Origin: an uncultured Lachnospiraceae bacterium
GTDB taxonomy: Bacteria > Bacillota > Clostridia > Lachnospirales > Lachnospiraceae
Assembly: GCA_902793995.1 (NCBI GenBank)
Contig: CADBFP010000010.1
Coordinates: forward strand, 1 to 60,654
Reading direction: 5' to 3'
DNA: 60,654 bases
Under the pieces are notes generated by a model. That model was not told where the DNA came from. It saw only the letters and a program-made list of their open reading frames with translations, and searched no databases. The position numbers were made by a program, and so were the translations under genes. This document shows, piece by piece, positions 1,990-21,326 of this stretch (positions are counted from its first letter, which is position 1; each line of letters opens with the position of its first letter).

Positions 1990-2062
1990 GGGGCATTAGC
2001 GCAGCTGGGAGCGCGCCACACTGGCAGTGTGGAGGTCAGGGGTTCAAGTCCCCTATGCTCCA
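1990..2062 (+). tRNA. tRNA-Ala (anticodon GGC)
   Basis: The 73-base cloverleaf has a seven-pair acceptor stem (GGGGCAT with ATGCTCC), a five-pair anticodon stem around CTGGCAG giving anticodon GGC, and a T arm with TTCAAGT. CCA is not encoded. The last 21 bases (2042-2062) recur exactly at 7216-7236 and with two changes at 4435-4454, as expected if this gene serves as an integration site. Confidence 0.96.
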
Positions 2063-2106
2063 TGAAAAGGAAGAGCCGGTGCGAAAGCATCGGCTCTTCC
2101 TTTTCA
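2063..2106 (+). terminator. Terminator hairpin behind tRNA-Ala
   Basis: A near-perfect 20-pair stem closed by a GAAA tetraloop directly follows the tRNA discriminator base. A nearly identical copy lies at 7237-7280 behind the duplicated tRNA 3' end. Confidence 0.8.
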
Positions 2107-2275
2107 ATGAAATTCGCCCCTTCGGGGCGAGTGAAAGGCTGCTGCGCAGCATGAAATGGGCTTTGCCCATGAAATGCTGACGCATGATGATGGGCGGATT
2201 TCATTTCACATTCGGCGCAGCCGAATATTTCATATCGAGCGTAGCAAGATAATTCATTCTTCACTTTTTGACGGA
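2105..2275. repeat. Modular hairpin repeat (copy 1)
   Basis: About five different small hairpins (CGCCCCTTCGGGGCG, GCTGCTGCGCAGC, GGGCTTTGCCC, CGGCGCAGCCG and a CGAGCG type) are separated by short spacers resembling TGAAAT or TTCATTTC. No coding signal is visible. The whole array is repeated at 7279-7445, and a fragment lies at 2703-2735. Confidence 0.65.
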
Positions 2276-2308
2276 ATCTAACCCGCAAAAGCATAATACA
2301 GGAGATGT

Positions 2309-2653
2309 ATGCTGATGAAGGAAAACAAACTCCAGGAGCTTTCCTTAACTTTTTCCGTGGAGATCATCAGGCTTTGCAAATCCATTAAGGGACATATTTC
2401 CTTGGTCAATCAACTGGAATGGTCTGCTACCTCCGTCGGAGCCAATATCCATGAGGCTAACTATGCCCACAGTCGGGCGGATTTTGTGGCTAAACTACAG
2501 ATTGCCCTGAAAGAGTGTTTTGAGACCGAGTATTGGCTAAAGCTGTTTCAGAAAACAGAGATAGGAAATGCAGAAATAGAGGAAGAATTGCAAAGTATTT
2601 GCGGAAGCTTGCGTCGGATGCTTATTGCGTCCATCAATACAGCCAAGAGATAA
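2309..2653 (+). CDS. Four-helix-bundle protein, 23S rRNA intervening-sequence (IVP/S23) family, copy 1
   Basis: This 114-residue protein has the family pattern: amphipathic helices with SVEIIRLCKSIKG, Q.E.SA.S.GANI.EA.YA.S..DF..KL.IALKE and ETEYWL. The family was first seen as ORFs inside 23S rRNA intervening sequences but also occurs alone; the Avd subunit of diversity-generating retroelements shares the fold. Two start codons lie behind the same GGAG: ATG 2309 at four bases and ATG 2315 at ten. The second spacing is the more usual one. A second copy at 7478-7822 differs at 13 residues by my count, and a third 3' fragment lies at 12166-12231. Its function in this locus is unknown. Confidence 0.85.
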   Translation: MLMKENKLQELSLTFSVEIIRLCKSIKGHISLVNQLEWSATSVGANIHEANYAHSRADFVAKLQIALKECFETEYWLKLFQKTEIGNAEIEEELQSICGSLRRMLIASINTAKR

Positions 2654-2669
2654 AACGAGGTGCTCCTGG

Positions 2670-2696
2670 AATAGTCGACACAGTGTGTCAACTATT
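2670..2696. other. Dyad in front of cassette A
   Basis: AATAGT-C-GACAC, a three-base loop, then GTGTC-A-ACTATT form an 11-pair stem with one mismatch. It lies between the four-helix gene and the cassette promoter and could be a protein-binding site or a weak terminator. Confidence 0.4.
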
Positions 2697-2755
2697 GTTC
2701 ACATCGAGAGCAGTGAGATATTTCATTCTTCACATTTTACTCAGCTTTTTCTAAA

Positions 2756-2784
2756 TTGAATATGAGCCGATTCTATGGTATGCT
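2756..2784 (+). promoter_or_regulatory. Cassette A promoter, conserved with cassette B
   Basis: The boxes are TTGAAT, 17 bases, TATGCT. The surrounding bases (CTAAATTGAA..TGAGCCGATTCT.TG.TATG.TTA) are almost the same at 4558-4603 in front of the other cassette gene. The predicted start near 2791 gives a leader of about 200 bases before the nuclease gene. The leader contains the shared GCTGACACAATT at 2867-2878. Confidence 0.6.
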
Positions 2785-2990
2785 TACCAACAGATGTTGA
2801 GTTTACGGTGCGTTTTGCGCTCTTTGTTTCCTGCAAGGAAGCGGTATTTGGAAAAGTGTAAGCACCGCTGACACAATTGGTGCAAGGGTATAATGCGAAC
2901 GATACGGTAGTAGTGATTAATCATATTGAGATTGATAGGGAATGTTCTACTCTGTTATTAGACTATCACTGGTAATTGAGGTAATTATCG

Positions 2991-4271
2991 ATGGGGGAAA
3001 GTAGATACTTAATAAGGGTTAGGTTTTACCAATCGCGATCAAGGTTGTTAAAGCGTGCTATAAGTCTAGCTAAGTCTTTTCCCACATTTGAGGATCGAGA
3101 AGGGTTGTTTTTCTGTGCTATTGATAATATCTATGATTACTGTAGATTACAGTTATCGGCTTATGAACTTATACAAATAATTGAGAAGTGGAAAGATAGT
3201 GAGATATGGCTCTATGATACTCAATACAAAAATAGAGCAGATTATCATGACTTCTTGACGGTTCTTAAAGGTAGCGCAGGAAAGTATACGCAATTAATAA
3301 ATGAATCTAACTCGCGTGTCTCACTTGGTCAAATATCAATAGAAGATCTACCGTATCCAATCGTTTATTATCCAGAGCATTATGGAGCGTTTTTTGGCTT
3401 TTCAATGGATATAGGGAGTCCAATATGTTTTTGTGAATGCGAACGTCTTGCTATAGATAATTACATCAAATTGCGAAAGCGCACCCCGATATCAGGGTTT
3501 ACAAATGATAAAAGCAATCCACTTGGGAGCGATATGTTTCCCATCACTGTTTCTAGAATCAGTAAAGGACATTCCGACCCATTATCACTGTTTGAATTTA
3601 AAGAAGGAATATGCTTTCGTTGTAACAAAAAGGTTCCCAATTATACATACTGTCATCCCATGTATGGAGGTGCTTTTAAACAGCATTATGGTTGGTATAT
3701 TCAACAGGAATACTATAAGCTGGGAATAGATAAAAACCAGCATAAGGAATTGAGTGTTTTGGAAGACACTTGCGACCCGGATATATATGATTCTTTAAAT
3801 CGTTTGTTCGAATTACATAAGATGGCATATTCTAACCTTAACATTGATGAGACAAGGGAACAATCAGAGATAAGGTCGAAGATAGATCGGGTGATTGAAA
3901 ACTCTGTGAGGACTCAGCTTGGTTTTAGAAAGATTGGAGATATTTGGATAAGTGAAACCATCCTCTATGAAATTGTGTGTCAGATTTTTGAAGGAAGTGA
4001 AGTTAAACGTCATTATAGACCTTCTTGGTTAGAAGGTCTCGAATTGGACATTTTTGTTCCTGCATATAATATTGCTTTTGAATATCAAGGTATTCAACAT
4101 TTTCAAGCGGTAAAGCACTGGGGCGGAGAACAGCAACTGAAAAAACAAAGAGATAATGATGCTCGAAAAAAAAGGATATGTTTGGAACGGAATATACATT
4201 TAATTTGCATTAACTACTATGATCCTCTCACTACGGAATACGTTGTGAAATGTATAAATAGCCGAGAATAA
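2991..4271 (+). CDS. Putative PD-(D/E)XK-like endonuclease with Cys-rich middle domain
   Basis: This 426-residue protein does not belong to a family I can name with certainty. The C-terminal 110 residues look like the PD-(D/E)XK/Vsr-like fold: E322 in ISETILYEIV, D353 in LELDIFVP, then E364 and Q366 in IAFEYQGIQHF, followed by a Lys/Arg-rich helix and ERNIHLICINY. Q in place of the usual K is seen in some branches. The middle has a CFCEC segment and CFRCNKK...YCHP, a possible metal site. Start ATG 2991 has GAGG about ten bases upstream. The gene is AT-rich compared with its surroundings and stands alone in its cassette. A nuclease of this sort in a mobile cassette could be a defence or a selfish function; this is inference. 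Confidence 0.65.
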   Translation: MGESRYLIRVRFYQSRSRLLKRAISLAKSFPTFEDREGLFFCAIDNIYDYCRLQLSAYELIQIIEKWKDSEIWLYDTQYKNRADYHDFLTVLKGSAGKYTQLINESNSRVSLGQISIEDLPYPIVYYPEHYGAFFGFSMDIGSPICFCECERLAIDNYIKLRKRTPISGFTNDKSNPLGSDMFPITVSRISKGHSDPLSLFEFKEGICFRCNKKVPNYTYCHPMYGGAFKQHYGWYIQQEYYKLGIDKNQHKELSVLEDTCDPDIYDSLNRLFELHKMAYSNLNIDETREQSEIRSKIDRVIENSVRTQLGFRKIGDIWISETILYEIVCQIFEGSEVKRHYRPSWLEGLELDIFVPAYNIAFEYQGIQHFQAVKHWGGEQQLKKQRDNDARKKRICLERNIHLICINYYDPLTTEYVVKCINSRE

Positions 4272-4324
4272 TTGTATTGATAGAGCTTGCGGATAGCGTG
4301 GCAAAGTTGCCAAGAGGTATAGGC

Positions 4325-4454
4325 TGTTACCTTCTCCAATTACCCCGGAAAAGAGCCCAATCGCCGACACCGCCTTTCCGTTGATATATCTACATTTTTG
4401 GATAATGCCAAAACGGGTCGAACGAACGTTCCTTGCTCAAGCCCCCTATGCTCC
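4325..4454 (+). repeat. Cassette 3' end with tRNA-Ala 3' remnant (copy 1)
   Basis: This matches 7106-7236 over its length: a GTTACCTTC..CAATTACCCCGG start, the shared segment at 4380-4412, a GAACGAACGTTCC palindrome and finally the tRNA tail, here with two substitutions. On the minus strand it encodes part of a spurious ORF reading through RGLE. Confidence 0.75.
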
Positions 4455-4463
4455 TTCCAGGAT

Positions 4464-4486
4464 ACCACGCAATAGCGTGGTTTTTT
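4464..4486 (+). terminator. Terminator at the end of cassette A
   Basis: ACCACGC, AATA, GCGTGGT followed by TTTTT lies ten bases after the tRNA remnant. It would insulate the next cassette promoter. Confidence 0.75.
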
Positions 4487-4502
4487 GATGTCCCGACTAA
4501 AC

Positions 4503-4523
4503 TCTGACGAAACATTCGTCAGA
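4503..4523. other. Perfect 9-base-arm dyad
   Basis: Arms TCTGACGAA and TTCGTCAGA are separated by ACA. The site is between the cassette A terminator and the cassette B promoter and has the shape of an operator or recombinase accessory site. Confidence 0.5.
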
Positions 4524-4566
4524 ATGAATGCAGATAAGCCGATATTATTCCACGACATTTTCTAAA

Positions 4567-4595
4567 TTGAACGTGAGCCGATTCTGTGATATGAT
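4567..4595 (+). promoter_or_regulatory. Cassette B promoter
   Basis: The boxes are TTGAAC, 17 bases, TATGAT, in the same sequence context as 2756-2784. In the leader, GTGTCA and TGACAC (4661-4681) can pair just before the shared AATT, and the cassette A leader has the corresponding weaker hairpin. Confidence 0.6.
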
Positions 4596-4705
4596 TACTA
4601 TCGGATTCTATTGCGAATTATGACGCCCTCAGCCCTTAAACGAGGGTGAACTGTATAATAGTGTCATCACTGCTGACACAATTCATAGTAGGTAGGTGAG
4701 ATACC

Positions 4706-6247
4706 ATGACAATCAGTGAAGTCCTCGCTATGGAGGAAAAACAGATATTCGACCGCAAAAGCATTCAAATCAAGCCCGTGGATTTGTCTGACACAATCTG
4801 TGCGTTTGCGAATGCTGATGGGGGTACGATAGCTATTGGTATATCGGATAGACGACGGAGGATTGAAGGGGTCGATTATCACATTGAACTACTGAATGAA
4901 ATCCTGCGGACTCCTATAGATTTTTGCAATCCGACCGTTCCAATCACAATGGAGATGGTGGAATGCACTAATTTCCAGGGACAGCTGGATCATGTGCTGT
5001 TGATGAAAATAGAAGCCAGTCCGTTGCTTCATGCTAATCAAGCAGATGAGGTGTTCCTTCGAGTAGGAGACAAGAATAAAAAACTGAGTTTTAGTGATCG
5101 GATGACCTTGATGTATGCCAAGGGAGTACGTTACTACGAGGATGAGCCTGTGGCGGATGCTTCCCTAGAGGACCTTGACTTTGATTTTATTAAGGATTAC
5201 TGCAGACGGATTGGTTACTCAAAATCTCCGGAACAATATGTCCGTGAGAATAAGAGATTCGTCACGACAAAAAACGGAAGGGATCAGGTCTCTGTCGCCG
5301 CCATTCTGCTGTTTGGTAAAAACCCACAATTGTTTTTCCCTCGCGCCTCTGTTCGTTTCATCCGTTTTGATGGCACGGAGGCAAAAGTGGGCCAGAAAAT
5401 GAACGTGGTCAAAGACGTGGTTTTTGAAGGGCGTTTATTGGAACAAGTGAAGAAAGCTGTAGACTATATCAAGATTCAAATGAAGGAAAAAACCTACCTC
5501 GGGAAAGATAGTATTTTTGTCACAGATGAGGAATACAGCGAATTTGTTCGCACTGAAATAGTCGTTAATGCGATCACCCACCGTGACTATGCTATTAAGG
5601 GGACTGATATCCAAGTAAAGATGTTTGATGATCGCCTGGAAGTGGATAGCCCCGGTTCCTTTGCCGGAATGGTCAATAAACATAATATCCGGTATACGCA
5701 TTTTTCCCGGAATCCGACTATTGCGGCTTTTTTGAAAGATTATGGGTATGTGAAGGAGTATGGGGAAGGAGTTGATCGGATGTGCCTGGAATTACAGGCT
5801 CTTGGTTTGCCCGCCCCGGCTTTTAACGACAGCACTTTTATTCTTAAAACCACTGTGAAAAGTGCCGCATATAGAAACGAAACGACGCGAGGCGCGTCGA
5901 TTCAGGCTGAAAATGCGTCGATTGAGGGAAAGGACGCGTCGATTGAGGGAAAGGACGCGTCGATTCAGGGTGAAAGTGCGTCGATTCGCAGGAAAGAGGA
6001 GTTGCATCAAAAGCTTATACGAATGAAGAGCTCCGGAGAGTTATCTCCGCAAAATGCTGATGAGGCTCGGTTGATAGTCCAGGAAATGGATGTTATGCAA
6101 GTGATTACAAGCAAGGAAATAATGAGAGTATTATCCTGTCAAACTACCAAGGCCAGACGTGTGCTGAAAATGATGGAAGGCTGTGGATTTATTTTGCCTA
6201 TTCAGGGTAAGGGGAAAGGAAAGTATATTCTGAATACTACGGAATAG
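4706..6247 (+). CDS. AlbA_2 (Schlafen-like) domain ATP-binding protein
   Basis: This 513-residue protein has the layout of the bacterial AlbA_2 group often labelled 'ATP-dependent DNA helicase RecG-like' or 'putative transcriptional regulator'. Residues 10-130 hold the AlbA_2 domain (CAFANADGGTIAIGI). Residues 270-385 hold a GHKL-type ATPase-like domain (RTEIVVNAITHRDY, DDRLEVDSPG, YGEGVDRM), followed by a winged-helix-like C-terminus. Between them and the tail are five in-frame seven-residue repeats of the form ASIEGKD/ASIQGES (397-431). Start ATG 4706 has a GGTGAG site. Relatives occur in defence islands and mobile elements. It is followed after 12 bases by a second cargo gene. Confidence 0.75.
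   Translation: MTISEVLAMEEKQIFDRKSIQIKPVDLSDTICAFANADGGTIAIGISDRRRRIEGVDYHIELLNEILRTPIDFCNPTVPITMEMVECTNFQGQLDHVLLMKIEASPLLHANQADEVFLRVGDKNKKLSFSDRMTLMYAKGVRYYEDEPVADASLEDLDFDFIKDYCRRIGYSKSPEQYVRENKRFVTTKNGRDQVSVAAILLFGKNPQLFFPRASVRFIRFDGTEAKVGQKMNVVKDVVFEGRLLEQVKKAVDYIKIQMKEKTYLGKDSIFVTDEEYSEFVRTEIVVNAITHRDYAIKGTDIQVKMFDDRLEVDSPGSFAGMVNKHNIRYTHFSRNPTIAAFLKDYGYVKEYGEGVDRMCLELQALGLPAPAFNDSTFILKTTVKSAAYRNETTRGASIQAENASIEGKDASIEGKDASIQGESASIRRKEELHQKLIRMKSSGELSPQNADEARLIVQEMDVMQVITSKEIMRVLSCQTTKARRVLKMMEGCGFILPIQGKGKGKYILNTTE
5894..5998 (+). repeat. Five tandem 21-base repeats inside the AlbA_2 gene
   Basis: Units start at 5894, 5915, 5936, 5957 and 5978, each opening with GCGTCGATT. Units two and three are identical over 21 bases. 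Changes in copy number would keep the frame and lengthen or shorten the linker ahead of the winged-helix tail. Confidence 0.9.
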
Positions 6248-6259
6248 ACAGTATGGGAA

Positions 6260-7066
6260 ATGGAGAATAATCTAAAAGAATTGAAAGAATGTGGTGATAC
6301 AGACACAAGAAACAAACTGCTTTCGGAATGTAGCACGATTCTGAACTGTTGCGATGAAGATGTTCAGAAGTGTTCTGTTGTTGAAGAACAATCATACCGA
6401 TATGCGATAATACGAACCTATTGCAAGATATTACTGTCTTGCAAGGAGATACTATGTTTGTTGTTAAACGGTTTCCCCGATGGCGGAATGGCACTGACTC
6501 GACAAGTATTCGAGGGATGGGTCATCGTTCGAGCACTTTTGATCGGAATTCAACAAAATGATTGTGGCCTAATAGAGCGTTTTTTTGATTCGATTGTCAT
6601 TTTTGAGTTGAAACAATCCAAACGAATCTTGGAATATGTCATATCCCAAAAGGTAGATCAAAAAGAAACACAGGAGAAGTTGGACAATGTTGAATCGCAG
6701 GCTATGGCATATCTGACAAAATACAACAAAGAAAAACTACGTGATTTTAAAGATTACTGGTGGGCTGAATGCGATTCATTCCAAAACCTGAAAACAAAAG
6801 TCCATCTACCCGATGATTATATGTATTCATTTACTAGCAATAGGGTACATCTAAATATTGCTTCGATGTTTAATTATATGGATCAAACAGAAGAAGGAAT
6901 ACTTTTGGGTCCCAGCATTTCTGGATGGAAAATGCCATTGCAGTATATGCTTATATGCTTGAGATCAATTGTAGGAGAGATAAGTGCCTTTTACCCTGAG
7001 TTTACTTCTCCTGCAACAATTAAGAAGATTACAGATTTGGCCGAAAAGCTACGTGGATGCTTATAG
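6260..7066 (+). CDS. DUF5677-like protein of unknown function
   Basis: This helical protein of 268 residues resembles DUF5677 proteins, notably in YCKILLSCKEILCLLLNGFP followed by GGMALTRQVFEGWVIVRALL, the 'repertoire' helix pair of that family. No catalytic motif stands out. No strong ribosome binding site precedes ATG 6260, and it begins 12 bases after the AlbA_2 gene, so it is probably translated from the same message. The composition is AT-rich like the rest of the cassette. It may act with the AlbA_2 protein, but nothing in the sequence proves that. Confidence 0.6.
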   Translation: MENNLKELKECGDTDTRNKLLSECSTILNCCDEDVQKCSVVEEQSYRYAIIRTYCKILLSCKEILCLLLNGFPDGGMALTRQVFEGWVIVRALLIGIQQNDCGLIERFFDSIVIFELKQSKRILEYVISQKVDQKETQEKLDNVESQAMAYLTKYNKEKLRDFKDYWWAECDSFQNLKTKVHLPDDYMYSFTSNRVHLNIASMFNYMDQTEEGILLGPSISGWKMPLQYMLICLRSIVGEISAFYPEFTSPATIKKITDLAEKLRGCL

Positions 7067-7105
7067 GGATGGTTTTGGTTTGTATGCGCATTGATGCTCA
7101 TATTT

Positions 7106-7236
7106 GTTACCTTCCCCATTTACCCCGAAAAAGAGTTGGAATCGCCGACGCCTCCTTTCCGTTGATATATCTACATTTTTGGATGTTACTGAAACAGGCC
7201 GAACGAACGTTCCTCGTTCAAGTCCCCTATGCTCCA
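7106..7236 (+). repeat. Cassette 3' end with exact tRNA-Ala 3' copy (copy 2)
   Basis: This is the counterpart of 4325-4454. Its last 21 bases equal 2042-2062 of the tRNA. It is the likely right attachment half-site of the array. Confidence 0.8.
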
Positions 7237-7280
7237 TGAAAAGGAAGAGCCGGTGCGAAAGCAACGGCTCTTCCTTTTCA
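7237..7280 (+). terminator. Duplicate of the tRNA-Ala terminator
   Basis: This near-copy of 2063-2106 carries one loop-proximal change. It shows that the duplication extends beyond the tRNA end. Confidence 0.75.
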
Positions 7281-7445
7281 ATGAAATTCGCCCCTTCGGG
7301 GCGAGTGAAAGGCTGCTGTGCAGCATGAAATGAGCTTTGCCCATGAAATGCTGACGCATGATGATGGGCGAATTTCATTTCACATTCGGCGCAGCCGAAT
7401 AATTCATATCGAGCGCAGCGAGATATTTCATTCTTCACTATTTGA
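7279..7445. repeat. Modular hairpin repeat (copy 2)
   Basis: This is a near-identical copy of 2105-2275 with scattered substitutions, some of them compensating within hairpins or neutral. It is non-coding. Confidence 0.65.
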
Positions 7446-7477
7446 CTGAATCTAACCCCAAAAAATACAGGAGGCGT

Positions 7478-7822
7478 ATGCTGATGAAGGAGAATAAACT
7501 TCAGGAGCTTTCCTTATCTTTTTCCGTGGAGGTCATCCGCTTGTGCGAGTCTATCAAAGGACACAGTTCTTTGGTCAATCAATTGGAGCGTTCCGCCACA
7601 TCCATTGGAGCCAATATCCATGAGGTGAACTATGCCCACAGCCGGGCGGATTTTGTTGCTAAACTACAGATTGCCCTGAAGGAGTGTTTCGAAACGGAGT
7701 ATTGGCTGAAGTTGTTTCAGAAGACGGAGATAGGGGATGCCGACAAGGAAAAGAAACTGCAAAGCATTTGCGGCAGCCTGCGCAGGATGCTGATTGCCTC
7801 TGTCAATACAGCAAAAAGATAG
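7478..7822 (+). CDS. Four-helix-bundle protein, IVP/S23 family, copy 2
   Basis: This is a paralogue of the protein at 2309-2653, with the same length and 101 of 114 residues shared by my count. ATG 7478 follows AGGAGG; the second ATG six bases on is again possible. Charge-changing substitutions cluster in the last third (GDADKEKKLQ here, GNAEIEEELQ in copy 1). Conservation of reading frame and length suggests both copies are under some selection. Fragments of its 3' end and of the following 'GGAGATCATTG' sequence recur at 12166-12366. Confidence 0.85.
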   Translation: MLMKENKLQELSLSFSVEVIRLCESIKGHSSLVNQLERSATSIGANIHEVNYAHSRADFVAKLQIALKECFETEYWLKLFQKTEIGDADKEKKLQSICGSLRRMLIASVNTAKR

Positions 7823-7993
7823 GGAAGTGAGGAGATCATTGTCTAAAAGATTTCCCCGTTGCCAAATGCTGTGTATCGGTTCCGAAAGACTTTCCACAAA
7901 CTATTGTTAGAAAAAAACTTGAGTGGTACAATAAAACGGCCGTGCTATTGATATAGGCATAGGAGCTTTTTGTTTGGGTGTGAGGGATTTGCT

Positions 7994-8881
7994 ATGATCT
8001 ATGTTGTTTTGGTCATTATAGCCTTGCTTGTTTTGCTTCCGGTCCTGCTTTCCGTGTTTTTCTTCAAACCCTTCAAGTACACCGATAGGTGGAACCGCCC
8101 GACTCATGAGGATTATGCAGACGAGAATGAAGCGACTTCCTTTATGAGTCGAAGGAGCAGGCTTGCGGCTCATATTTACGGTGCGGATAATAAAAAGGGA
8201 ACCCTGATTTTTTCCCACGGGATGGGCGTCCCCTCAGACTATTATATCCCTGAGGCCCGGTATTTTGCGAAAGCCGGATACAGATCGATCCTGTTTGATA
8301 ATACGGGATACTGGAAAAATAAGGGGATATTCCTTGGATTCCCGCGTGCCGCTAAGGATCTTGCTGCTGCCATCCGGCATTTTGACAATGGTACGCCTCT
8401 TATCCTGTTTGGGCACAGTATGGGCGCTTACGCCGTCTGCACAACGCTTCCTGAGGCAGGAGAGAATGTAAAAGCCGTTGTAGCCTATTCCGGCTTTGAC
8501 AATGAGCCTGAGATGATTAAGGAATTTACAGAAACGAATCTTAAGAAATGTAAAGGCCTTGTTGCTTTTCTGTTCAGCGCGTCCCAGTGCATCCTTTTTC
8601 CGCATAGATTTTTCCGCTCATCGTGGAAATGTTTGAAAGAGTGCGGATGCAGGGCCATGATCATACACGGCAGCGCTGATGAGGAGATAGCTATCAACGG
8701 TGCGTCTCTGTATGCCCATGCGGTTCATGAAAAACCAGACATGACCGTGACATTTTCGCCGGACAAAGAAGGCCATAATACCCATATGGGCATTGTTCGT
8801 CCCGTAGATGCGTCCGGTGAGATCAATCAAGAGGTGCTTCCGAGGGTGCTTCAATTTATAGATGAACTTGCTGACAAGTGA
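7994..8881 (+). CDS. Membrane-anchored alpha/beta hydrolase
   Basis: This 295-residue protein has an N-terminal membrane anchor (MIYVVLVIIALLVLLPVLL). An alpha/beta hydrolase fold follows with TLIFSHGMG as the oxyanion region, the nucleophile elbow GHSMG, an acidic residue in the IIHGSADEEI strand and a late histidine in KEGHNTHMG. It resembles YqkD/FrsA-like serine hydrolases, and the substrate is unknown. The start is the ATG preceded by GAGGG seven bases upstream; an in-frame ATG eight codons earlier lacks a site. It sits between four-helix copy 2 and a broken cNMP-binding gene. Confidence 0.8.
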   Translation: MIYVVLVIIALLVLLPVLLSVFFFKPFKYTDRWNRPTHEDYADENEATSFMSRRSRLAAHIYGADNKKGTLIFSHGMGVPSDYYIPEARYFAKAGYRSILFDNTGYWKNKGIFLGFPRAAKDLAAAIRHFDNGTPLILFGHSMGAYAVCTTLPEAGENVKAVVAYSGFDNEPEMIKEFTETNLKKCKGLVAFLFSASQCILFPHRFFRSSWKCLKECGCRAMIIHGSADEEIAINGASLYAHAVHEKPDMTVTFSPDKEGHNTHMGIVRPVDASGEINQEVLPRVLQFIDELADK

Positions 8882-8942
8882 TAAAAGGATATCCATAACG
8901 AAGAAATATTGATATAGCCTGTAAGAAGATAGGGGAGTGTTT

Positions 8943-9213
8943 TGATCTACCATGATTATGGAACTGAAAACGAGTACCTCATAGGAATCAGCATGCAGGA
9001 CAAATGCTTTGGAGAGTATGGCTGCTTTCCGGCAATCTGAGCACCTATACCGCCCTGGCCAATGAGGACACGATTGTAATGGAGATACCAAAGAGCGATC
9101 TCCATCATTTCATCTCCCTCAATCCCAGAAATGCCGAAGAAATATTCGGCTCCATGGCAAAACAGATTGCCATGCTTTCAAAGAATATTGAGATGCTGAG
9201 AAATGAGGGTTGA
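8943..9213 (+). pseudogene. Crp/Fnr-type regulator remnant, frameshifted
   Basis: Reading from 8943 gives LIYHDYGTENEYLIGI followed by CFGEYGCF, the conserved core of a cyclic-nucleotide-binding domain. The frame then breaks near 9025 and continues in another frame as SGNLSTYTALANEDTIVMEI and EEIFGSMAKQIAMLSKNIEMLRNEG. Both the N-terminus and the helix-turn-helix C-terminus are missing. The last 74 bases are repeated at 12380-12453. An upstream start cannot be identified. Confidence 0.65.
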
Positions 9214-9270
9214 AGGGGCGGATAAGTTTCCGATGACAGGGAAACTACACATCCCCCAAATCCCCATCCC

Positions 9271-9975
9271 CTACCTTTTCAAACGTTTATCCGCCCGGGC
9301 GGCCAGGCGCGTGCCCAGAGACTGAAATAGCTGCACCAGCAGAATCAGCAGGAGAACGGCGCAAAGCATCACCAGGTAGCGGTAGCGGTAATACCCGTAA
9401 TTGATGGCGATTTTGCCCAGGCCGCCGCCCCCTATGATCCCGCTCATGGCAGAGTATCCCAAAATGGTGGTAACAGCGATAGTGCCGTTGGAGATGAGAG
9501 AAGGAATGCTCTCCGGAATCAGCACCTTTGCAATGATCTGCATGGGGGAAGCCCCCATAGACTGGGCCATCTCGAGGGTGTTGGGATCCACCTCCCGGAA
9601 ACTGCTCTCCGCCAGCCGCGCAACAAAGGGGAAGGCCGCTATGACCAGGGGAACGATGGAAGCGAAGGTTCCGACGGAAGTGCCGATTAAAAGCCTGGTA
9701 AGGGGGATGACCATAATCATCAAAATCAGGAAGGGCACGCTGCGGAGCAGATTGACGACTCCGTTTAGGAGCTTCATCAGCCAGGCAGGAAGAGGCAGGA
9801 TGCCTTTCTTTCCGCCTACGGCCAGCAGCACCCCCAGGGGCAGTCCCAGAAGGAAGGCAAACAAACTGGCCAGAAGCGTCACATAAAGGGTTTCCCAAAA
9901 GGCCAAAGGGAACTGGCTGATGATCACATCCCAGGCCTCGGCGGCCATTTCGGCATTGAAAATGTTCTTAAACAT
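9271..9975 (-). CDS. metI: Methionine ABC transporter permease
   Basis: This 234-residue inner-membrane permease has about five transmembrane helices and the cytoplasmic coupling loop EMAQSMGASPMQIIAKVLIPESIPS, typical of MetI (D-/L-methionine import, MetNIQ). It overlaps the 3' end of metN by eight bases and has its own GGAGG site there. It is the last gene of the leader-metQ-metN-metI operon. A Crp-type pseudogene lies downstream on the other strand. Confidence 0.92.
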   Translation of the reverse strand: MFKNIFNAEMAAEAWDVIISQFPLAFWETLYVTLLASLFAFLLGLPLGVLLAVGGKKGILPLPAWLMKLLNGVVNLLRSVPFLILMIMVIPLTRLLIGTSVGTFASIVPLVIAAFPFVARLAESSFREVDPNTLEMAQSMGASPMQIIAKVLIPESIPSLISNGTIAVTTILGYSAMSGIIGGGGLGKIAINYGYYRYRYLVMLCAVLLLILLVQLFQSLGTRLAARADKRLKR

Positions 9976-10978
9976 GGCGATTCACCTCCTCGGCAATTAC
10001 ATCCGGTATTTGTGTCATATAAGCCATTGCCCTCCGGGCCTGATCCTGTTCCGGAAAGGAAAGCAGCATGGAACCGAACATTTTGTCCGCCAGGCTCCGG
10101 GTGGAAGCGTAAGCAATATTGGCCATTATGCCCTTTTCCAGGGCCATTTGAGCAATGAGAGGCGTGGCGGTGGCTTTGGCTCCGTGGAAAACCACCCGGA
10201 TGAAATGCCGGTCGTCCGTGGCAATGACGGAGGATTCCGCCTCGCCCTCCGGAAAGACAAGCCGGCGGGCGGCAGCGGAGGCAGGTCGGGCAAAGATTTC
10301 GCTGACATCGCCCTGCTCGGCTACTCTGCCCTGATCCAGAATCGCCACATGGCGGCAAATGCTTTCCACCACGCTCATCTGATGGGTGATGATAATCACG
10401 GTGATCCCCAGCTTTTCATTGATATCCCGGATCAGGGACAAAATGGAATGAGTGGTCAGCGGATCCAGGGCGCTGGTGGCTTCATCGCAGAGGAGAACCT
10501 TCGGCTCTGTGGCCAGGGCCCGGGCAATGGCCACCCGCTGCTGCTGGCCGCCGGAGAGCTGGGCGGGAAAGCTCTGGGCCTTATCCGCAAGGCCCACTAA
10601 ATCCAAAAGCTCCAGGCTGCGCTGCCGGGCGGCGGCGCTGCTTTCCCCCGTAAGCTCCAGAGGAAAGCAGACATTTTTCAGACAGCTCCGCTGCATCAGC
10701 AGATTGAAGCCTTGGAAAATCATGGTGATTTCCCGGCGTTTTTTCCGCAGTTCCTCCTGGCTCAGGCGGGCAAGGTCCACCCCGTCCATCAGAACCTGGC
10801 CTTCGCTGGGCTTTTCCAGCCTATTGATGCAGCGGACCAGGGTGCTCTTGCCGGCCCCGCTCATGCCGATTATTCCGAAAATATCCCCGGTCTGAATGCT
10901 GAGGGAAACATCTCTCAGGGCCTTGGTTTCGCCCTCCGGCGAAAGGAAGGTTTTGGATAAATGCCGTATCTCAATCAT
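9968..10978 (-). CDS. metN: Methionine ABC transporter ATPase
   Basis: This 336-residue ATPase has Walker [10 protein letters not shown], the signature [15 protein letters not shown], Walker [13 protein letters not shown] and the H-loop in IIITHQM. The C-terminal ~95 residues form the ACT-like NIL regulatory domain, which in characterised MetN binds methionine and shuts the transporter. The start chosen is the MIEIRH methionine just after metQ; the longer frame would run back into metQ. Confidence 0.93.
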
Positions 10979-10997
10979 AATCCTTCTTTTCCCTTTC

Positions 10998-11834
10998 TTA
11001 CTTAAACACATCCAGACTGGACTGTTTGCCCCCGTAAAGGCTCATGGGTTCGATATGGATGCCGGCCACGCTGACAAGATGGGTGCCCCGGGATTCATTG
11101 AATTCATTCAGATAAGGGAGGTGCTGGAAGTAGTTGGCATCGATTTCTCCGTCCTCCACCACGGTGTTGGGCAGCACATAATCTTCAAAACTCTTGATTT
11201 CCAGGCTGATATTTTTCTCCGCCAGAATGGCCTTGGCCACTTCCAGAATGTCCACATGGGGGCTGGGAGACGCTGCCACGCTGATGCTTTTCCCCGCCAA
11301 AGCGCCGTAGTCCAGAGAGGGATCGAAGCCGTTGCTTTCCTTTTCCACCGCTGCCACGATTTGCCCGTCATATTTCTCCCGGATATGCTCCACCACCTGA
11401 TGGCTGGTCAGGGCGGCGGCCAAAGCCTTCACCAGGGGATCATTTTGCCGGCCCTCCTTCACGCAAAGGATATTCACATAAGGGGAGACGGCGCCTTCCA
11501 TATACAGGGCGTCCCGGCCGGGATTCAGGCCCGCAGCCAGGGCGTAATTGGTATTGATAACGGCAAAATCCACGTCCTTCAAAAGGTTGGGGAGCTGAGC
11601 CGCTTCGGCTTCTTTGAAGCTGATATGGTACGGGTTTTCCAGGATGTCCTGAAGCGTAGCGGTAAGGCCGGCGGTTTCTTTCAGCTTAATCAGCCCCTTC
11701 GCCTCCAAAAGCAGGAGGGCGCGGCCTTCATTGGTAGGGTCATTGGGCAGAGCAATGGTGAGTCCCTTTTGCCCGCAGGCAGAAAGAGAAATAAGGGCGG
11801 CCAGTGCAAGCAGAAGAGCAATGAGTTTTTTCAT
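10998..11834 (-). CDS. metQ: Methionine-binding lipoprotein
   Basis: This 278-residue NLPA-type binding protein has the signal peptide MKKLIALLLALAALISLSAC with a lipobox ending at the cysteine. It captures methionine outside the membrane for MetNI. Conserved NLPA stretches include LPNDPTNEGRALLLLE and FAVINTNYALAAGLNP. AAGGATG precedes the start by eight bases. A terminator sits about 40 bases upstream of the start and a Met-rich leader peptide precedes that, so expression is probably attenuated. Confidence 0.93.
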   Translation of the reverse strand: MKKLIALLLALAALISLSACGQKGLTIALPNDPTNEGRALLLLEAKGLIKLKETAGLTATLQDILENPYHISFKEAEAAQLPNLLKDVDFAVINTNYALAAGLNPGRDALYMEGAVSPYVNILCVKEGRQNDPLVKALAAALTSHQVVEHIREKYDGQIVAAVEKESNGFDPSLDYGALAGKSISVAASPSPHVDILEVAKAILAEKNISLEIKSFEDYVLPNTVVEDGEIDANYFQHLPYLNEFNESRGTHLVSVAGIHIEPMSLYGGKQSSLDVFK

Positions 11835-11872
11835 GGTAATCATCCTTTCGTTTTTTGTTTTCCCGTCAGACA

Positions 11873-11910
11873 AATAAAAAAGGGGAGGCCTCCGATGAAG
11901 CCTCCCCTTT
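11873..11910 (-). terminator. Attenuator terminator upstream of metQ
   Basis: Read on the minus strand, 11910-11900 (AAAGGGGAGGC) pairs perfectly over 11 bases with 11889-11879 around a ten-base loop. TTTTATTT-like sequence follows. It lies between the leader peptide and metQ in the same transcript, which is the position of an attenuator and not of a gene-end terminator. Confidence 0.8.
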
Positions 11911-11928
11911 CAGGCTGCAGGCAGCCCC

Positions 11929-12036
11929 TTATGATTTACAGGAAGAGGGATCGGAAGAAAAAGCACAGCAGGAAACGCACATACCCATAGGCATGTGCAT
12001 AAGCATCTCCATCATCATGGTTCGAGCTGTCTTCAC
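11929..12036 (-). CDS. Met-rich leader peptide of the metQNI operon
   Basis: This 35-residue ORF starts at GTG 12036, with GAGGAG seven bases upstream. After MKTART it reads MMMEMLMHMPMGMCVSCC, so eight methionine codons fall within thirteen codons, followed by a Cys-rich end and a stop at 11931. An ATG start at 12018 is also possible. A consensus promoter lies 42 bases upstream of the GTG, and the attenuator terminator 19 bases downstream of the stop. Within the ORF, 11950-11957 can pair with 11889-11896 in the terminator, a candidate antiterminator. The layout fits ribosome-mediated attenuation by methionine (or Met-tRNA) supply. I found no S-box or T-box consensus. The peptide itself may have no function. 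Confidence 0.7.
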   Translation of the reverse strand: MKTARTMMMEMLMHMPMGMCVSCCAFSSDPSSCKS

Positions 12037-12077
12037 CGAATCTCTCCTCGTTTGTTTATTTGTTGCGGGTTGCGGCA

Positions 12078-12106
12078 ATAGTAGCACAGAGGCGGCAGGG
12101 TGTCAA
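12078..12106 (-). promoter_or_regulatory. metQNI operon promoter
   Basis: On the minus strand TTGACA, 17 bases, TACTAT. Transcription would start near 12071 and run through the leader peptide and attenuator into metQ. Confidence 0.75.
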
Positions 12107-12165
12107 GAACTTCTTTCCTTGAGTATATTCCAGACGGATTTTTGTCAGACGCTAATAAAAAAAAA

Positions 12166-12231
12166 GTGCAAAGTATTTGCGGAGGTCTGCGCAGGATGCT
12201 GATTGCCTCTGTCAATACAGCAAAAAGATAG
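12166..12231 (+). pseudogene. Fragment of a third four-helix (IVP) gene copy
   Basis: Only the last ~20 codons remain, reading QSICGGLRRMLIASVNTAKR and a stop, nearly the same as the ends of 2309-2653 and 7478-7822. The upstream boundary is a run of A. It marks a rearrangement junction. Confidence 0.75.
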
Positions 12232-12745
12232 GGGCATTGCCAAAAGAGCGCAGGCTTTTGATCTCGACTCCTGCCAGCGGCAAATGACTTTTTCTGCGCT
12301 TTATCAAAACGCTTATCGGAAGAAAAGATTGGGTATGATTGCTCTTTTAATAGGAGATCATTGACTATTATTATGTTATCCATGCTTTCAAAGAATATCG
12401 AGATACTGAGAAATGAGGGTTGAAGGGGCGGATAAGTTTCCGATGACAGGGAAGGTGTTTTGATCCCGACTTAGAGGAACATCAGAAGAGCAGAACGGGC
12501 TGAAAAATGGAGCAGCGCACCCCAGGAGACCCGTCTCAATGTCATTTAGTTAAGAAAAATAGTGTCATCCTGAGCACAGACTCTCCCCTGCAGGGGAGAG
12601 ATGGCCCGAAGGGCCAGAGAGGGGAACACGAAGGATCCCATCCCTCCGATCCTGTCCTAAAATTATGGGATCCTTCGGCTTTAAGGTCTCAGGATGACAG
12701 GCTTAACCTAATGACAGTGGACCCATCTCCCTGGTGCACTGTTTG
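12232..12745. other. Intergenic mosaic of duplicated fragments and a long palindrome
   Basis: There is no gene here. It holds a TAGGAGATCATTG match to 7829-7844 (12351-12366), a 74-base duplicate of the cNMP-gene 3' end (12380-12453) and a long palindromic element (12563-12699). Confidence 0.6.
12563..12699. repeat. Nested palindromic repeat, TGTCATCCTGAG type
   Basis: The ends TGTCATCCTGAG and CTCAGGATGACA are inverted. Inside, CGAAGGATCCCAT (12629-12641) pairs with ATGGGATCCTTCG (12665-12677), and CTCTCCCCTGCAGGGGAGAG and GGCCCGAAGGGCC are further hairpins. It is non-coding. Confidence 0.75.
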
Positions 12746-13447
12746 TTACGGCAATAACTGGTTGGAGATGAAGCGCCAGCCATCCGCGTTCCTCTCCATG
12801 ACGGCGGTTCCGTGCCAGCCTCGTATCGTATCCTCCCAATCTATTTGGGCCAGATGCTCTTTCTCCAGCCAGTGGGCTTTGATCACCTGCGGCAACATGG
12901 GTTCGCTGTCTCCGTAAAAGCTGTAGTAGGCGTCATATTCTTCCAAATAAATGCCGGCAGGCGGACTGTTTTCAATCAGTGTCAAAATGGCTTCCTCCGA
13001 CAAGGCGGTATATTTCTTTAAAATAGAGATTACCTTAGCCCGGGGACGCTTCTGAGGCTTCAGGCCAAGATTGTCAAATCCCAGGGCCTGTACGGCGGCA
13101 GCAAGTTCTTCGGCATCCACCGTTTCGTTTAGATCGGCTATGCCGGAGGAGCTGGTTCCGTTAAAAAATACCATACTCAGATCCAGATCCTCGGCCTTTT
13201 CATAGGAGCAGATCAGGAACATGCCGGGAATGCGGTCCCGTTTGCGGCTCAGGAAAAAGTCCAATTCCTTTACTTCTTCCTGGGTAAAATCCCGGGATTG
13301 CTTCGGAGAGCTTACGGAAGCGCTTTCCTTCGTCTCCTGGGACAAAATAGTGCTGCCTTCGGCTTTTTTGCTGCAGGCGCTTAGAAGCAAAAGACCGGCA
13401 ATCAGTACGATGAGCAGGGATGCGGGGGAACAGATTTGTTTTTTCAT
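12746..13447 (-). CDS. Hypothetical lipoprotein of the sigma-factor operon
   Basis: The 233 residues start with a signal peptide and the lipobox LLLLSAC, so the protein is probably anchored on the outer face of the membrane. The rest (DLDLSMVFFNGTSSSGIADLNETVD, AGIYLEEYDAYYSFYGDSEP) matches no family I can name. It overlaps the upstream anti-sigma-like gene by four bases and is the last gene of a three-gene operon. It may monitor envelope state for the sigma system; this is inference from position only. Confidence 0.75.
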   Translation of the reverse strand: MKKQICSPASLLIVLIAGLLLLSACSKKAEGSTILSQETKESASVSSPKQSRDFTQEEVKELDFFLSRKRDRIPGMFLICSYEKAEDLDLSMVFFNGTSSSGIADLNETVDAEELAAAVQALGFDNLGLKPQKRPRAKVISILKKYTALSEEAILTLIENSPPAGIYLEEYDAYYSFYGDSEPMLPQVIKAHWLEKEHLAQIDWEDTIRGWHGTAVMERNADGWRFISNQLLP

Positions 13448-14151
13448 GGGGATATCCTCCTTTTTGTCTTTTCACTTACTAAACGAATGAGGGTCGCGGA
13501 ATCAGACACACTTTTTCCCGAATTTTCCATAATTTCTGCAGAAAGCTGATGAATGATTTTTTGGTTGGTCTCTGCATCAAAGGTGCTCCAAATTAGAAAA
13601 TAAAGCTTTTCCTCCTCATCCATCCAGACATACTGGTAGTCGTCTTGACTGCCCCGGCGATAGACATCCACGGTTTTCCCACCCTCCTCCATCTGCTCCA
13701 GGTTTAAGCTGGAGCCCAGGGATTCCGGCTTGTAGCTGACGGGAGCCTTATATTTCCCGCAGCGGATATTGAGTTTATGATCATCCTGAAAGAGGATGGA
13801 CAAACTATACCAGCCCTCCCGGCTGCCCCCCTCTTCCCAGCGGACCAGTTCTTCCCCTTCCGGCAGCCAAAGGGTTTGGCGGATGGGGGCGGCCGGCCTT
13901 AACGCAAACCAGGTGAGAAGCGCCACCAGAATCATGGCGATGGCTGCCAGAGCCGGTTTGAAGGACAGGATTCGATGCTTCTTCGCAGCCGTCTCTCCCC
14001 GCAGGAGGGCCTCCATCTTTTTCTGAAAGGCGGAAGACGGGGTGGGAGTGCCCTCTGTTTCCAGGGCCTTTTCCGCCTCCGCCACCCATTGTCTGGCCAA
14101 CAGGGCGCTTGCCTTTCGAAGACTGTTCTCATCAACTGGATTCTTCCTCAT
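13444..14151 (-). CDS. Anti-sigma-factor-like membrane protein
   Basis: The 235 residues comprise a cytoplasmic N-terminal ~60, one transmembrane helix around 67-85 (LAAIAMILVALLTWFAL) and an extracellular domain reminiscent of DUF4367 (VDVYRRGSQDDYQYVWMDEEEKLYFLIWST). It overlaps the sigma gene by four bases and is translationally coupled to it. That arrangement is standard for an ECF sigma factor and its membrane anti-sigma factor. No classical zinc-binding HxxxCxxC is seen, so the sigma-binding surface is not identified. Confidence 0.7.
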   Translation of the reverse strand: MRKNPVDENSLRKASALLARQWVAEAEKALETEGTPTPSSAFQKKMEALLRGETAAKKHRILSFKPALAAIAMILVALLTWFALRPAAPIRQTLWLPEGEELVRWEEGGSREGWYSLSILFQDDHKLNIRCGKYKAPVSYKPESLGSSLNLEQMEEGGKTVDVYRRGSQDDYQYVWMDEEEKLYFLIWSTFDAETNQKIIHQLSAEIMENSGKSVSDSATLIRLVSEKTKRRISP

Positions 14152-14675
14152 AGAGCCTCTCCTTTCATAGTTTCCCCGATGTTTTGCCTAAGGCGGGACA
14201 CGGTTCGCTGAACAGCACCGGCTTTTTTTCCGATCAGCTTTCCGATTTCCGCATATTTCAGTCCCAAATGGTAATGCAGAACCAGGATTTCCTGTTGTTG
14301 CAAGGGAAGCCGGGCAATGGCTTCCGTCAGGCGGAGGATGTCATCAGGCTCATCCGGCGCTTCGTAAACCTGTCCCGCCAAAGCCTCCTCATAAGAAAAG
14401 TCGGCCATATGCTTCCGCTTTTTCAGCATATCCAGAGCCTGATTTTGCACACAGACCAGCAGAAACGCTTTTTGTTCGTTGTCCGGCAGATGACGCAGGC
14501 GCTCGGGGCTGTCCATCAGACGGAGAAATACATCGTGCACGGCATCCTCCGCATCGGCCTGATTCCCCAACAGCTTTTGCCCGCGGCTTAAGAGCAGCGG
14601 CAAATGCTCCTGGTAGAGCCGGCTGAATAGCTCACGGTCTTCCGGGTTTGCAAGAGTCATGAAGCAAAGTAGCAT
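14148..14675 (-). CDS. ECF-type RNA polymerase sigma factor
   Basis: The 175 residues contain sigma-70 region 2 (LLGNQADAEDAVHDVFLRLM) and region 4 (LPLQQQEILVLHYHLGLKYAEIG, ending in SRLRQ), with no regions 1 or 3, as in group IV factors. The first ATG has GGAG nine bases upstream. It heads an operon with a membrane anti-sigma candidate and a lipoprotein, so it probably answers an envelope signal and may autoregulate. Confidence 0.88.
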   Translation of the reverse strand: MLLCFMTLANPEDRELFSRLYQEHLPLLLSRGQKLLGNQADAEDAVHDVFLRLMDSPERLRHLPDNEQKAFLLVCVQNQALDMLKKRKHMADFSYEEALAGQVYEAPDEPDDILRLTEAIARLPLQQQEILVLHYHLGLKYAEIGKLIGKKAGAVQRTVSRLRQNIGETMKGEAL

Positions 14676-14756
14676 AAGCGAAATCTCCTTTTTTCACTTC
14701 CTATACTATAAACGATTGGGCAGGTAAAAAACAGACAGGAGAAATGAAAAAAAGTT

Positions 14757-14789
14757 GTAAAAAGCGATCCTTGAATCATCAGGGATCGC
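14757..14789 (-). terminator. Terminator after the MATE gene
   Basis: On the minus strand GCGATCCCT and AGGATCGC form a stem around nine bases, followed by TTTTT. It ends the transcript of the gene at 14862-16232. Confidence 0.75.
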
Positions 14790-14861
14790 AGAGAGGATTT
14801 CCAGAACAAAGGGAAAGCAGTTTTCGGAGGGTGTTAAGGTCTTTTCCCTCCCGTCCCGCTT

Positions 14862-16232: not shown

Positions 16233-16339
16233 GATGGAACCTGCTTTCTTTGTTTTTCCCTTAGGCAGTACGGAAGTATTATACCCTCCTTCCCCGGGCT
16301 TCGTCCAGCGGTTTTTGCACCGGAGGGACAGGTCCCTTG

Positions 16340-16419
16340 GCGCATTTTTTGCATTTCACCCCCTGATTTTTGCCACTTAGCGCATTTTGCGAGACAAAAG
16401 CCCCGGAATGCTATATGAT
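16340..16419 (+). promoter_or_regulatory. Promoter and direct repeats of the LytTR-DUF3021 operon
   Basis: GCGCATTTT begins at 16340 and again at 16380, exactly 40 bases apart. A GAGACA (16391-16396), 17 bases, TATGAT (16414-16419) promoter follows. Spaced direct repeats are the usual target of LytTR domains, so autoregulation is likely. Confidence 0.5.
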
Positions 16420-16456
16420 GCAATCAGCCGAGGCTAAAAGGAAAGGAGGAGACAGG

Positions 16457-16891
16457 ATGAAAGCAAAACTGGAACTGTCCCCGGAGTATCAGACCCCCTA
16501 CGCTGTCATTTATGCCAACGCCGTCACGGAAGAGGTGAAGCAGGCCATGGATTTCTTCAGCGGGCCGGACAATGTCATCATCGCCCAGAAGGGCGAGAAG
16601 ATGCAGGTGCTGAGTCCCGGAGAAATCTACATGGTACGGGTAGAAGAGGGAGAAAGCATTATTTACACGGCAAAGGACAGGCTGTATTCCCGCAGACGGC
16701 TGTATGAGCTGTTGGGCCAGCTGGGCGGCGGCTTTATGCAGACCTCCAAGTCCTGCCTGGTGAACCTGAAGGTCTTAGACAGCGTGGAGAGCAGCTTCGG
16801 CGGCGCCTTGATGCTGAAACTGAAAAACGGTCTGACGGATTATGTGTCCCGGACCTACCTGCCGGCCTTCAAACAGTATTTGGGATTATAA
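16457..16891 (+). CDS. LytTR-domain DNA-binding regulator
   Basis: This 144-residue regulator has no receiver domain. The C-terminal LytTR fold is seen in YMVRVEEGESIIYTAKDRLYSRRRLYELLGQL and FMQTSKSCLVNLKVLDSVESSFGGALMLKLKNG. The start is the ATG with AGGAGG eight bases upstream. It forms an operon with a DUF3021 membrane protein 12 bases downstream, a recurring pair in Firmicutes in which the membrane protein is thought to restrain the regulator. Confidence 0.88.
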   Translation: MKAKLELSPEYQTPYAVIYANAVTEEVKQAMDFFSGPDNVIIAQKGEKMQVLSPGEIYMVRVEEGESIIYTAKDRLYSRRRLYELLGQLGGGFMQTSKSCLVNLKVLDSVESSFGGALMLKLKNGLTDYVSRTYLPAFKQYLGL

Positions 16892-16903
16892 AGGAGAAGG
16901 AAA

Positions 16904-17335: not shown

Positions 17336-17341
17336 ACCCAC

Positions 17342-18550: not shown

Positions 18551-18622
18551 AGTTTGCTCCTTTCGGCAGAGTCTTTGGCCGGTGGGTCAGGGCGACCCAT
18601 TATCGCCCTTAGGGTCTTGGCA

Positions 18623-21306: not shown

Positions 21307-21326
21307 AAGGCTCTCCTAAGTTGAAT

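Follow-up and report, generated by a model that had tools for sequence, protein, structure and literature searches.

A LexA-type palindrome at the attachment core of putative integrase-less cassettes behind tRNA-Ala genes in a Lachnospiraceae genus

How do short gene cassettes that carry no recombinase come to be stacked behind a tRNA gene, and what might hold them in place or let them move? The question is raised by a 60,654-nucleotide stretch of DNA from an uncultured Lachnospiraceae bacterium (GenBank assembly GCA_902793995.1, contig CADBFP010000010.1, positions 1 to 60,654; hereafter the window), where two cassettes follow a tRNA-Ala(GGC) gene and make up the first 5.2 kb of a variable region behind it. 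From a computational comparison with related genomes we consider it likely that the array was built by tandem accretion of integrated elements at tRNA-Ala, with attR-type ends, integrase-less cassettes resembling cis-mobilizable elements (CIMEs) and a LexA-type box at the core that would gate recombination. Stacked integrase-less islands at tRNA genes are already known; the new part is the LexA-type box at the attachment core.

Results

Two cassettes with a common end behind tRNA-Ala(GGC)

As a preliminary description of the window had noted, the 21-base tail of tRNA-Ala(GGC) has an exact copy at 7216-7236 and a second one at 4435-4454 that carries two changes in 20 bases, and each copy closes a conserved segment of about 130 bases. 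Aligned over 131 bp, 4325-4454 and 7105-7236 share 85% of their bases (E 8e-37), far above chance. The genes enclosed are unrelated, a nuclease-like gene in one cassette and AlbA_2 and DUF5677 genes in the other, an assignment with which Pfam and PHROGs agree. The same description had both cassettes open with a shared promoter block and leader. The blocks are indeed alike (2747-2795 and 4558-4606, 84% identity; leader motifs 2852-2878 and 4657-4683, 85%), but cassette 1 opens with another segment, 2063-2660, and the promoter block comes second. That segment, overlooked at the time together with the LexA-like palindrome at the core, is a duplicate of 7237-7821 (~590 bp at 87% identity), and both copies contain a Gut-1 RNA and a 23S_rRNA_IVP gene. 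Since sequences resembling 7237-7821 (69-71% identity) also lie 3' of tRNA-Ala(GGC) in the relatives G007 and G011, it is probable that 7237-7821 is the old flank and that 2063-2660 arose as a captured duplicate.

The genome of the window (G000) is a 2.17-Mb draft of 64 contigs, 93% complete, and holds a third cassette on a separate contig, at its tRNA-Ala(CGC) site. Upstream of tRNA-Ala(GGC) the window is collinear with G003, G007 and G011 at 70-71% identity. Collinearity is regained at about 26,104-26,120 of the window, ~24 kb past the tRNA, a point that lies 2.2-2.3 kb past it in G007 and G011 and 7.8 kb past it in G003; the region behind tRNA-Ala(GGC) is therefore highly variable. Some 18 kb more (7822-26104) separate the array from the point where collinearity with G007 and G011 resumes.

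The end block marks elements at tRNA-Ala genes across the genus

A DNA search of 61 genomes gave matches in 12, of which 11 belong to the genus (the window's own genome included), some of them through the tRNA tail alone. Within the genus, a pattern for the end block matched nine of 16 genomes, and a profile confirmed it in eight (G000, G003, G004, G008, G009, G010, G013 and G014). The block occurs at both tRNA-Ala(CGC) and tRNA-Ala(GGC) and brackets cargo other than the window's, which removes the objection that the constant end might accompany only the genes first seen with it. The promoter and leader block, in contrast, was found at up to three mismatches only in the two window cassettes, hence in one of the 16 genomes, and was rejected as a general constant end; of the two constant ends first proposed, the tRNA-tail end thus stands as common across the genus, whereas many left ends are made of GAGTTAC-type repeats.

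A tRNA-Ala(GGC/CGC) pattern recovered 26 genes in 15 of the 16 genomes. Sorted by hand, 15 of these sites carry an end block, a GAGTTAC-type left arm or an integrase (Table 1). Seven others show none of the three in at least 7.9 kb of downstream sequence (G003_GGC, G005_GGC, both sites of G007 and of G011, and G012_CGC, the last of which may carry a degenerate left arm), and four have fewer than 600 downstream bases, too short to judge. Eight tail copies lie on the same contig as their tRNA, and all match its isoacceptor type, one of them with changes: the tail is TCGATCCCCC at CGC sites and TCAAGTCCCC (one changed) or TCGAATCCCC at GGC sites. G003 and G011 provide an occupied and an empty site for comparison: the sequence past the last tail of G003 is 96.1% identical over 2530 bp, counted from the tail, to that past the tRNA of G011 (the G003 tRNA sits on a different contig). 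The locus is thus neither fixed nor collinear in all relatives, as it might have been were no mobile element involved.

In a collection of genome contigs the end-block pattern found 20 stretches. Ten reach at least 40 bits with the profile, nine from Lachnospiraceae and one from a yak-rumen Clostridia contig (L122); the other ten (five at about 18-20 bits, five with no profile score) were taken as chance matches. Apart from that contig, the named records with an end block are Lachnospiraceae assemblies, several of them labelled omasum or RUG. Among viral contigs a single exact pattern match turned up, in a coding context that by eye is unrelated, and was rejected.

Tyrosine integrases adjoin the tRNA in relatives

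Four elements of relatives hold an intact tyrosine integrase open reading frame (G009, 439 amino acids; G004, 428; G008, 427; G014, 417), on the opposite strand and with its 3' end 63 bp from the tRNA. The G009 protein has a Phage_integrase domain, and R267, H375, R378, H401 and Y411, which we take to be the catalytic residues, are invariant in all four. In G013, G001 and L122 the gene is cut by contig ends. The recombinase that the preliminary description had expected elsewhere therefore exists beside tRNA-Ala in relatives, if not, in any close form, in the draft genome of the window. The array itself, as first described, lacks one: tblastn with the relatives' integrase found no match there, and Pfam and PHROGs scans of four window proteins detected no recombinase or relaxase family, so that a Phage_integrase protein with the catalytic residues beside the tRNA is a feature of the relatives' elements and not of the window cassettes. 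Integrase relatives among 607 phage and 202 plasmid records all fall below 60% identity, and of 73 stretches picked from viral contigs by a peptide pattern none was confirmed.

Five integrase-less elements (G002_CGC, G004_GGC, G008_GGC, G014_CGC and the second element of G009_CGC) keep a stump, 49-97 bp of left arm and integrase 3' end at 79-94% identity, about 31-79 bp of which is integrase; a longer integrase stump of 137 bp lies near a contig end in G005_CGC. Because the five are cut at different points, integrase loss seems to have been repeated; the shortest matches give weak evidence (such as G002_CGC, 53 bp, E 9e-6). GAGTTAC-type repeats lie inside both ends of many elements, suggesting that they are arm-type sites. 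A VapE-like protein adjoins the integrase in the G013 and G014 elements (the G013 copy identified by hmmscan), so that the parent may be a satellite-like element.

Since the end block is shared with integrase-bearing relatives and accompanies stumps, cargo more alike than recA and an empty site, its sequence context identifies it as the attR-type end of CIME-like cassettes, a known kind of element. Each window cassette has a tRNA tail at both ends, its end block is common to integrase-bearing elements, and sequence scans find no integration or transfer genes of its own. The modular exchange array originally envisaged is thus borne out as to integration at tRNA-Ala and variable cargo, and is better seen as an accretion of CIME-like islands, which were probably moved in trans.

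Cargo and its sharing between species

Residues 322-412 of the nuclease-like protein, its C-terminal part, match a PHROG annotated as HNH endonuclease (E 4e-17). No Pfam or PADLOC match and, at E 10, no solved relative was found for it, and a single-sequence structure prediction was unusable (mean predicted local distance difference test score 33). The AlbA_2 protein alone of three window proteins matched in PADLOC, pAgo-type models among others, and the CGC-site cassette of the same genome encodes AbiEii (PADLOC E 4e-122) and AbiEi (E 6e-79). Relatives carry AlbA_2 genes (G003_CGC, G002_CGC), a SUFU-domain gene, a DUF4288 gene, an ion channel and, by eye, ABC-transporter-like genes (G010, G014); several of their cargo proteins have no Pfam name. 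The defence-type cargo first proposed is accordingly present (AbiE, AlbA_2) and appears common, not universal, because PADLOC gave no match for five of ten cargo proteins in one set scanned, which included the CGC-site AbiE, and for two of the three window proteins.

Shared cargo genes gave eight alignments, and in all of them identity (84.9-97.4%) is higher than for recA in the corresponding genome pair (77.4-93.9%; the recA loci include some flank). A 365-amino-acid gene is 90.4% identical between G004_GGC and G009_CGC, at different tRNA genes, against 77.4% for recA, and cargo of G013_GGC and G014_C21 is 96.1% identical against 85.3%. The integrase region of G004 and G008 behaves likewise (92.2% against 78.8%).

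A LexA-type box at the attachment core

All 14 end-block cores examined have the palindrome CGAAC-RNRY-GTTCG before the tail, with the centre RNRY in each, 2 bp from the tail in 12 cores and 3 bp in the two window cores. Boxes of the form CGAAC-N4-GTTCG precede lexA in 15 of 15 loci of this genus, with at most two mismatches, and recA in all 16 loci without any. The general Gram-positive LexA-box consensus has this form. A published table lists SOS boxes that share it (PMC8270828). In sequence, the core palindromes match the lexA and recA boxes of the genus.

With a matrix built from 39 lexA and recA boxes of up to one mismatch (one lexA and three recA loci have boxes that are not in it), nine cores score at least 16.5 bits and five, including both window cores, 7.9-12.3 bits. 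Of 338,597 positions scanned, the nine top scores all belong to cores, none of the 14 falls outside the best 0.03%, and no further box of at least 15 bits occurs in the 326 kb of array stretches scanned. The 26 tRNA genes themselves (attB) all score below 0. In an ungapped alignment of the 14 cores each column of the box arms carries 1.3-2.0 bits, whereas the 50 upstream bases average 0.57, and in a divergent G013 element the spacer differs by eye while arms, box and core are kept. These statistics cover tails within three changes and leave out the end blocks G003_CGC (near a contig end), G008_GGC, G013_C20 and G010_C178 and the internal halves in G009_CGC and G004_GGC. The fourteenth core (G013, L193) is a biased addition, having been found through its own box in a pattern search; without it 13 of 13 cores have the box and 12 of 13 reach 9 bits.

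Features of the window and side observations

The features of the array are collected in Table 1. A consensus promoter scan made no call at the promoter-like TTGAAT-17-TATGCT of cassette 1.

Table 1. Coordinates of the array in the window (positions of the window unless a contig is named), the occupied tRNA-Ala sites of the genus and the gene-less units of about 180 bp
Feature	Position	Strand	Remarks
tRNA-Ala(GGC)	1990..2062	+	ARAGORN; Rfam tRNA 64.5 bits; 3' end is the integration target (attB/attL)
Cassette 1 start	2063..2660	+	inverted repeat 2063-2106, Gut-1 RNA 2105-2180, 23S_rRNA_IVP gene 2309-2653 (Rfam; Pfam PF05635)
Cassette 1 opening block	2747..2878	+	promoter-like TTGAAT-17-TATGCT (by eye) and leader motif
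Cargo 1, nuclease-like protein, 426 aa	2991..4271	+	PHROGs HNH/homing endonuclease matches
End block 1, attR-like	4325..4454	+	degenerate arm repeats, conserved ~60-bp half, core with tRNA tail
LexA-like box CGAACGAACGTTCC	4419..4432	.	3 bp before tRNA-tail copy; 12.3 bits
Terminator-like hairpin	4464..4481	+	directly 3' of tail copy ending at 4454
Cassette 2 opening block	4558..4683	+	TTGAAC-17-TATGAT and leader motif
Cargo 2a, SLFN_AlbA_2 and HATPase_c_4, 513 aa	4706..6247	+	Pfam; PHROG 'DNA helicase' E 7e-120
Cargo 2b, DUF5677 protein, 268 aa	6260..7066	+	Pfam PF18928
End block 2, attR-like	7105..7236	+	closes with exact 21-bp tRNA tail
LexA-like box CGAACGAACGTTCC	7200..7213	.	3 bp before core; 12.3 bits
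Right flank	7237..7821	+	Gut-1 RNA (7279-7354) and 23S_rRNA_IVP gene
Occupied tRNA-Ala sites (n = 15)			G000 both, G001_CGC, G002_CGC, G003_CGC, G004 both, G005_CGC, G008 both, G009_CGC, G013 both, G014 both
Gene-less unit, ~180 bp	L025:14519-14696	-	
Gene-less unit, ~180 bp	L097:17617-17799	-	
Gene-less unit, ~180 bp	L094:11198-11380	-	
Gene-less unit, ~180 bp	L029:9300-9484	+	
Gene-less unit, ~180 bp	L029:13056-13240	+	
Gene-less unit, ~180 bp	L027:181-358	+	
Gene-less unit, ~180 bp	L193:8606-8783	-	

Several further units were seen near tRNA-Ala tails. A gene-less unit of about 180 bp starts directly behind one tRNA-Ala tail and closes in another, at GGC and CGC sites, some copies ending in a damaged tail. 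Its predicted fold is very strong (-90 to -101 kcal/mol in the four copies folded), and 15 of 40 consensus pairs are changed on both sides among seven sequences, several pairs also being broken in two of them. It has no Rfam match at the gathering score and may represent a structured RNA or else a minimal integrated element. A unit of about 110 bp lies 3' of tRNA-Ala(GGC) at L034:9454-9562, L108:88-196 and L035:9319-9428 and contains a motif of the type GGACTAG-hairpin-CGTCGCAA, which by eye is also present at 417-450 of the window. Gut-1 RNA (RF01706), a term for which the literature search returned no paper, is closely preceded by a tRNA-Ala tail and an inverted repeat in the window (2105-2180, 7279-7354), at L035:9470-9546 and at L023:8215-8290, with the 23S_rRNA_IVP gene 3' of it in the window and, by sequence similarity, in L035. 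An RT-5 RNA (RF03026) is found at 26522-26627 of the window and is conserved at the collinear site of a relative (L035:12061-12166). End-block halves that lack the tRNA-tail core lie inside elements at L024:5703-5756(-) and L025:10994-11049(-), suggesting fusion of neighbouring cassettes through core loss. Finally, in two distant elements at tRNA-Ser genes a LexA-like box lies instead on a promoter-like sequence, where by eye it follows TTGACA (L194:157-170, L197:2798-2811), and the gene downstream looks VapE-like, again by eye. An attR copy was sought near the distant tRNA-Ser integrases with exact tail words and none was found.

Discussion

We propose that a tyrosine integrase specific for tRNA-Ala, of the family that adjoins these tRNA genes in the genus, put each element in place; in relatives the evidence is direct, and in the window the same kind of enzyme would have acted. 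The end block would be the attR side, composed of arm-type repeats, a conserved stretch and the displaced 3' tail of the tRNA. Loss of the integrase gene from many elements would have left CIME-like cassettes whose short cargo operons encode AbiE, AlbA_2, nuclease-like and other proteins, and which could be moved only by a related integrase supplied in trans or from a neighbouring element. The likeliest role of the core box is that LexA bound to it would block the integrase at attR and attP, and DNA damage or phage attack, through the SOS response, would lift the block and allow cassettes to be released or exchanged. As a possible side effect, new elements would insert at the tRNA end, which would be left unmasked; this would fit the position of the integrase or its stump next to the tRNA at the seven sites where both lie on one contig (G009, G008, G004, G001, G005 and G013 at CGC, G014 at GGC). 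The regulatory part of this scheme, in which the host SOS repressor on an attachment site gates recombination and gives integrase-less defence cassettes a damage-responsive release encoded in DNA only, with mobilisation by any related integrase during SOS, is put forward tentatively, as a possibility that we place somewhat short of an even chance. It would suggest how passive cassettes could stay put and then move with no regulatory gene of their own and, if true, would connect DNA damage or phage attack with the way defence genes spread.

Several observations weigh against this proposal. No GAGTTAC left arm can be recognised in the window cassettes, nor any integrase remnant, and the 93%-complete draft G000, which holds five tyrosine recombinases in all, contains no close relative of the integrase, its best match (26% identity) lying on contig C5 beside tRNA-Ser. 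The integrase region of G004_CGC and G014_GGC is 78.3% identical, below the 93.9% of recA, and the integrase regions of G001 compared with G004, G013 and G014 are also below recA. With regard to the box, those of the window score 12.3 bits, joint third in the window behind positions of 13.1 and 12.8 bits; three other cores are weak (11.2, 10.2 and 7.9 bits); and the 14 cores are related by descent and not independent. A pattern combining box and T-arm matched five of 397 family genomes, against 11 by our count for a reversed-pattern control, and so gives no support beyond the genus. Because it catches only five of the 14 known cores, neither window core among them, this test is weak and says little on weaker boxes.

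The missing left arms and the missing integrase are also what one would see if the cassettes were ordinary decayed islands, immobile fossils of tRNA-Ala elements without an integrase, whose arrays record past accretion. The core at 4435-4454, in which three of 20 bases depart from the tRNA tail when framed as in the isoacceptor tail comparison, and the core-less end-block halves in G009_CGC and G004_GGC, as fusion or decay would leave them, point the same way. However, integrase-less cargo is common to different species, even between GGC and CGC sites, and exceeds recA in all eight alignments, and the box is conserved while the sequence upstream of it diverges. On balance simple decay seems rather unlikely to us.

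The core palindrome might instead be a binding site for the integrase or an excisionase, its likeness to an SOS operator being coincidental. It lies beside the likely crossover region, A occupies the third position of its centre in 13 of 14 cores, a stronger bias than in the lexA and recA boxes (23 of 39), and five of the 14 boxes score 12.3 bits or less. Yet it has the same form as the lexA and recA boxes of the same genomes, nine cores outscore all other scanned positions, and the attB of the tRNA has no palindrome; in addition, two integrase protomers are expected to need a longer site. This explanation, too, we regard as improbable, with about the same weight as decay. An integron-like system, with cargo swapped between two constant ends by a dedicated recombinase, could draw on the cargo stop codons that abut the end block in several elements and on the end half that recurs inside two arrays, but is highly improbable given that left ends vary across elements, that internal end-halves lack the core and that, in place of IntI and attC, there are a Phage_integrase protein beside the tRNA and ends made of tRNA tails (no separate IntI model was run).

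Comparison with known systems

The stacking of integrase-less elements at a tRNA gene, for which we favour accretion of CIME-like cassettes, has close counterparts. Streptococcal CIMEs, in the portion of the account available, have lost integration and transfer genes, retain attL and attR and accumulate as tandem stacks at a target gene's end (PMC5704250). Unlike these, the elements described here are a few kb long, some with single defence-type operons, and have a LexA-type box at the attR core. Islands at ssrA of Dehalococcoides are likewise reported, in the excerpts at hand, to be numerous, tandem and bounded by copies of the RNA-gene tail; part of them have an integration module beside attL, whereas 15 lack one, with insertion in the T-loop and a serine recombinase acting on the ssrA target (PMC3146451). 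Here, in contrast, the integrase is a tyrosine recombinase and the target is tRNA-Ala; those excerpts also mention no LexA site.

As for control by LexA, in Salmonella genomic island 1 (SGI1) the repressor acts at the promoter of the activator genes sgaDC, according to the available part of its description (PMC9927553). By analogy with SGI1, mobility here would be under the damage-sensing LexA, although the operator-like site abuts the recombination core and no promoter was recognised there by eye. The operon of Staphylococcus aureus pathogenicity islands and the integron intI gene are also LexA-controlled. In the literature searched, no title or abstract reported LexA at attachment sites. Tycheposons are tRNA-targeting tyrosine-recombinase elements with varied cargo; they belong to a different host group, and we liken the present cassettes to them by description alone, without sequence comparison.

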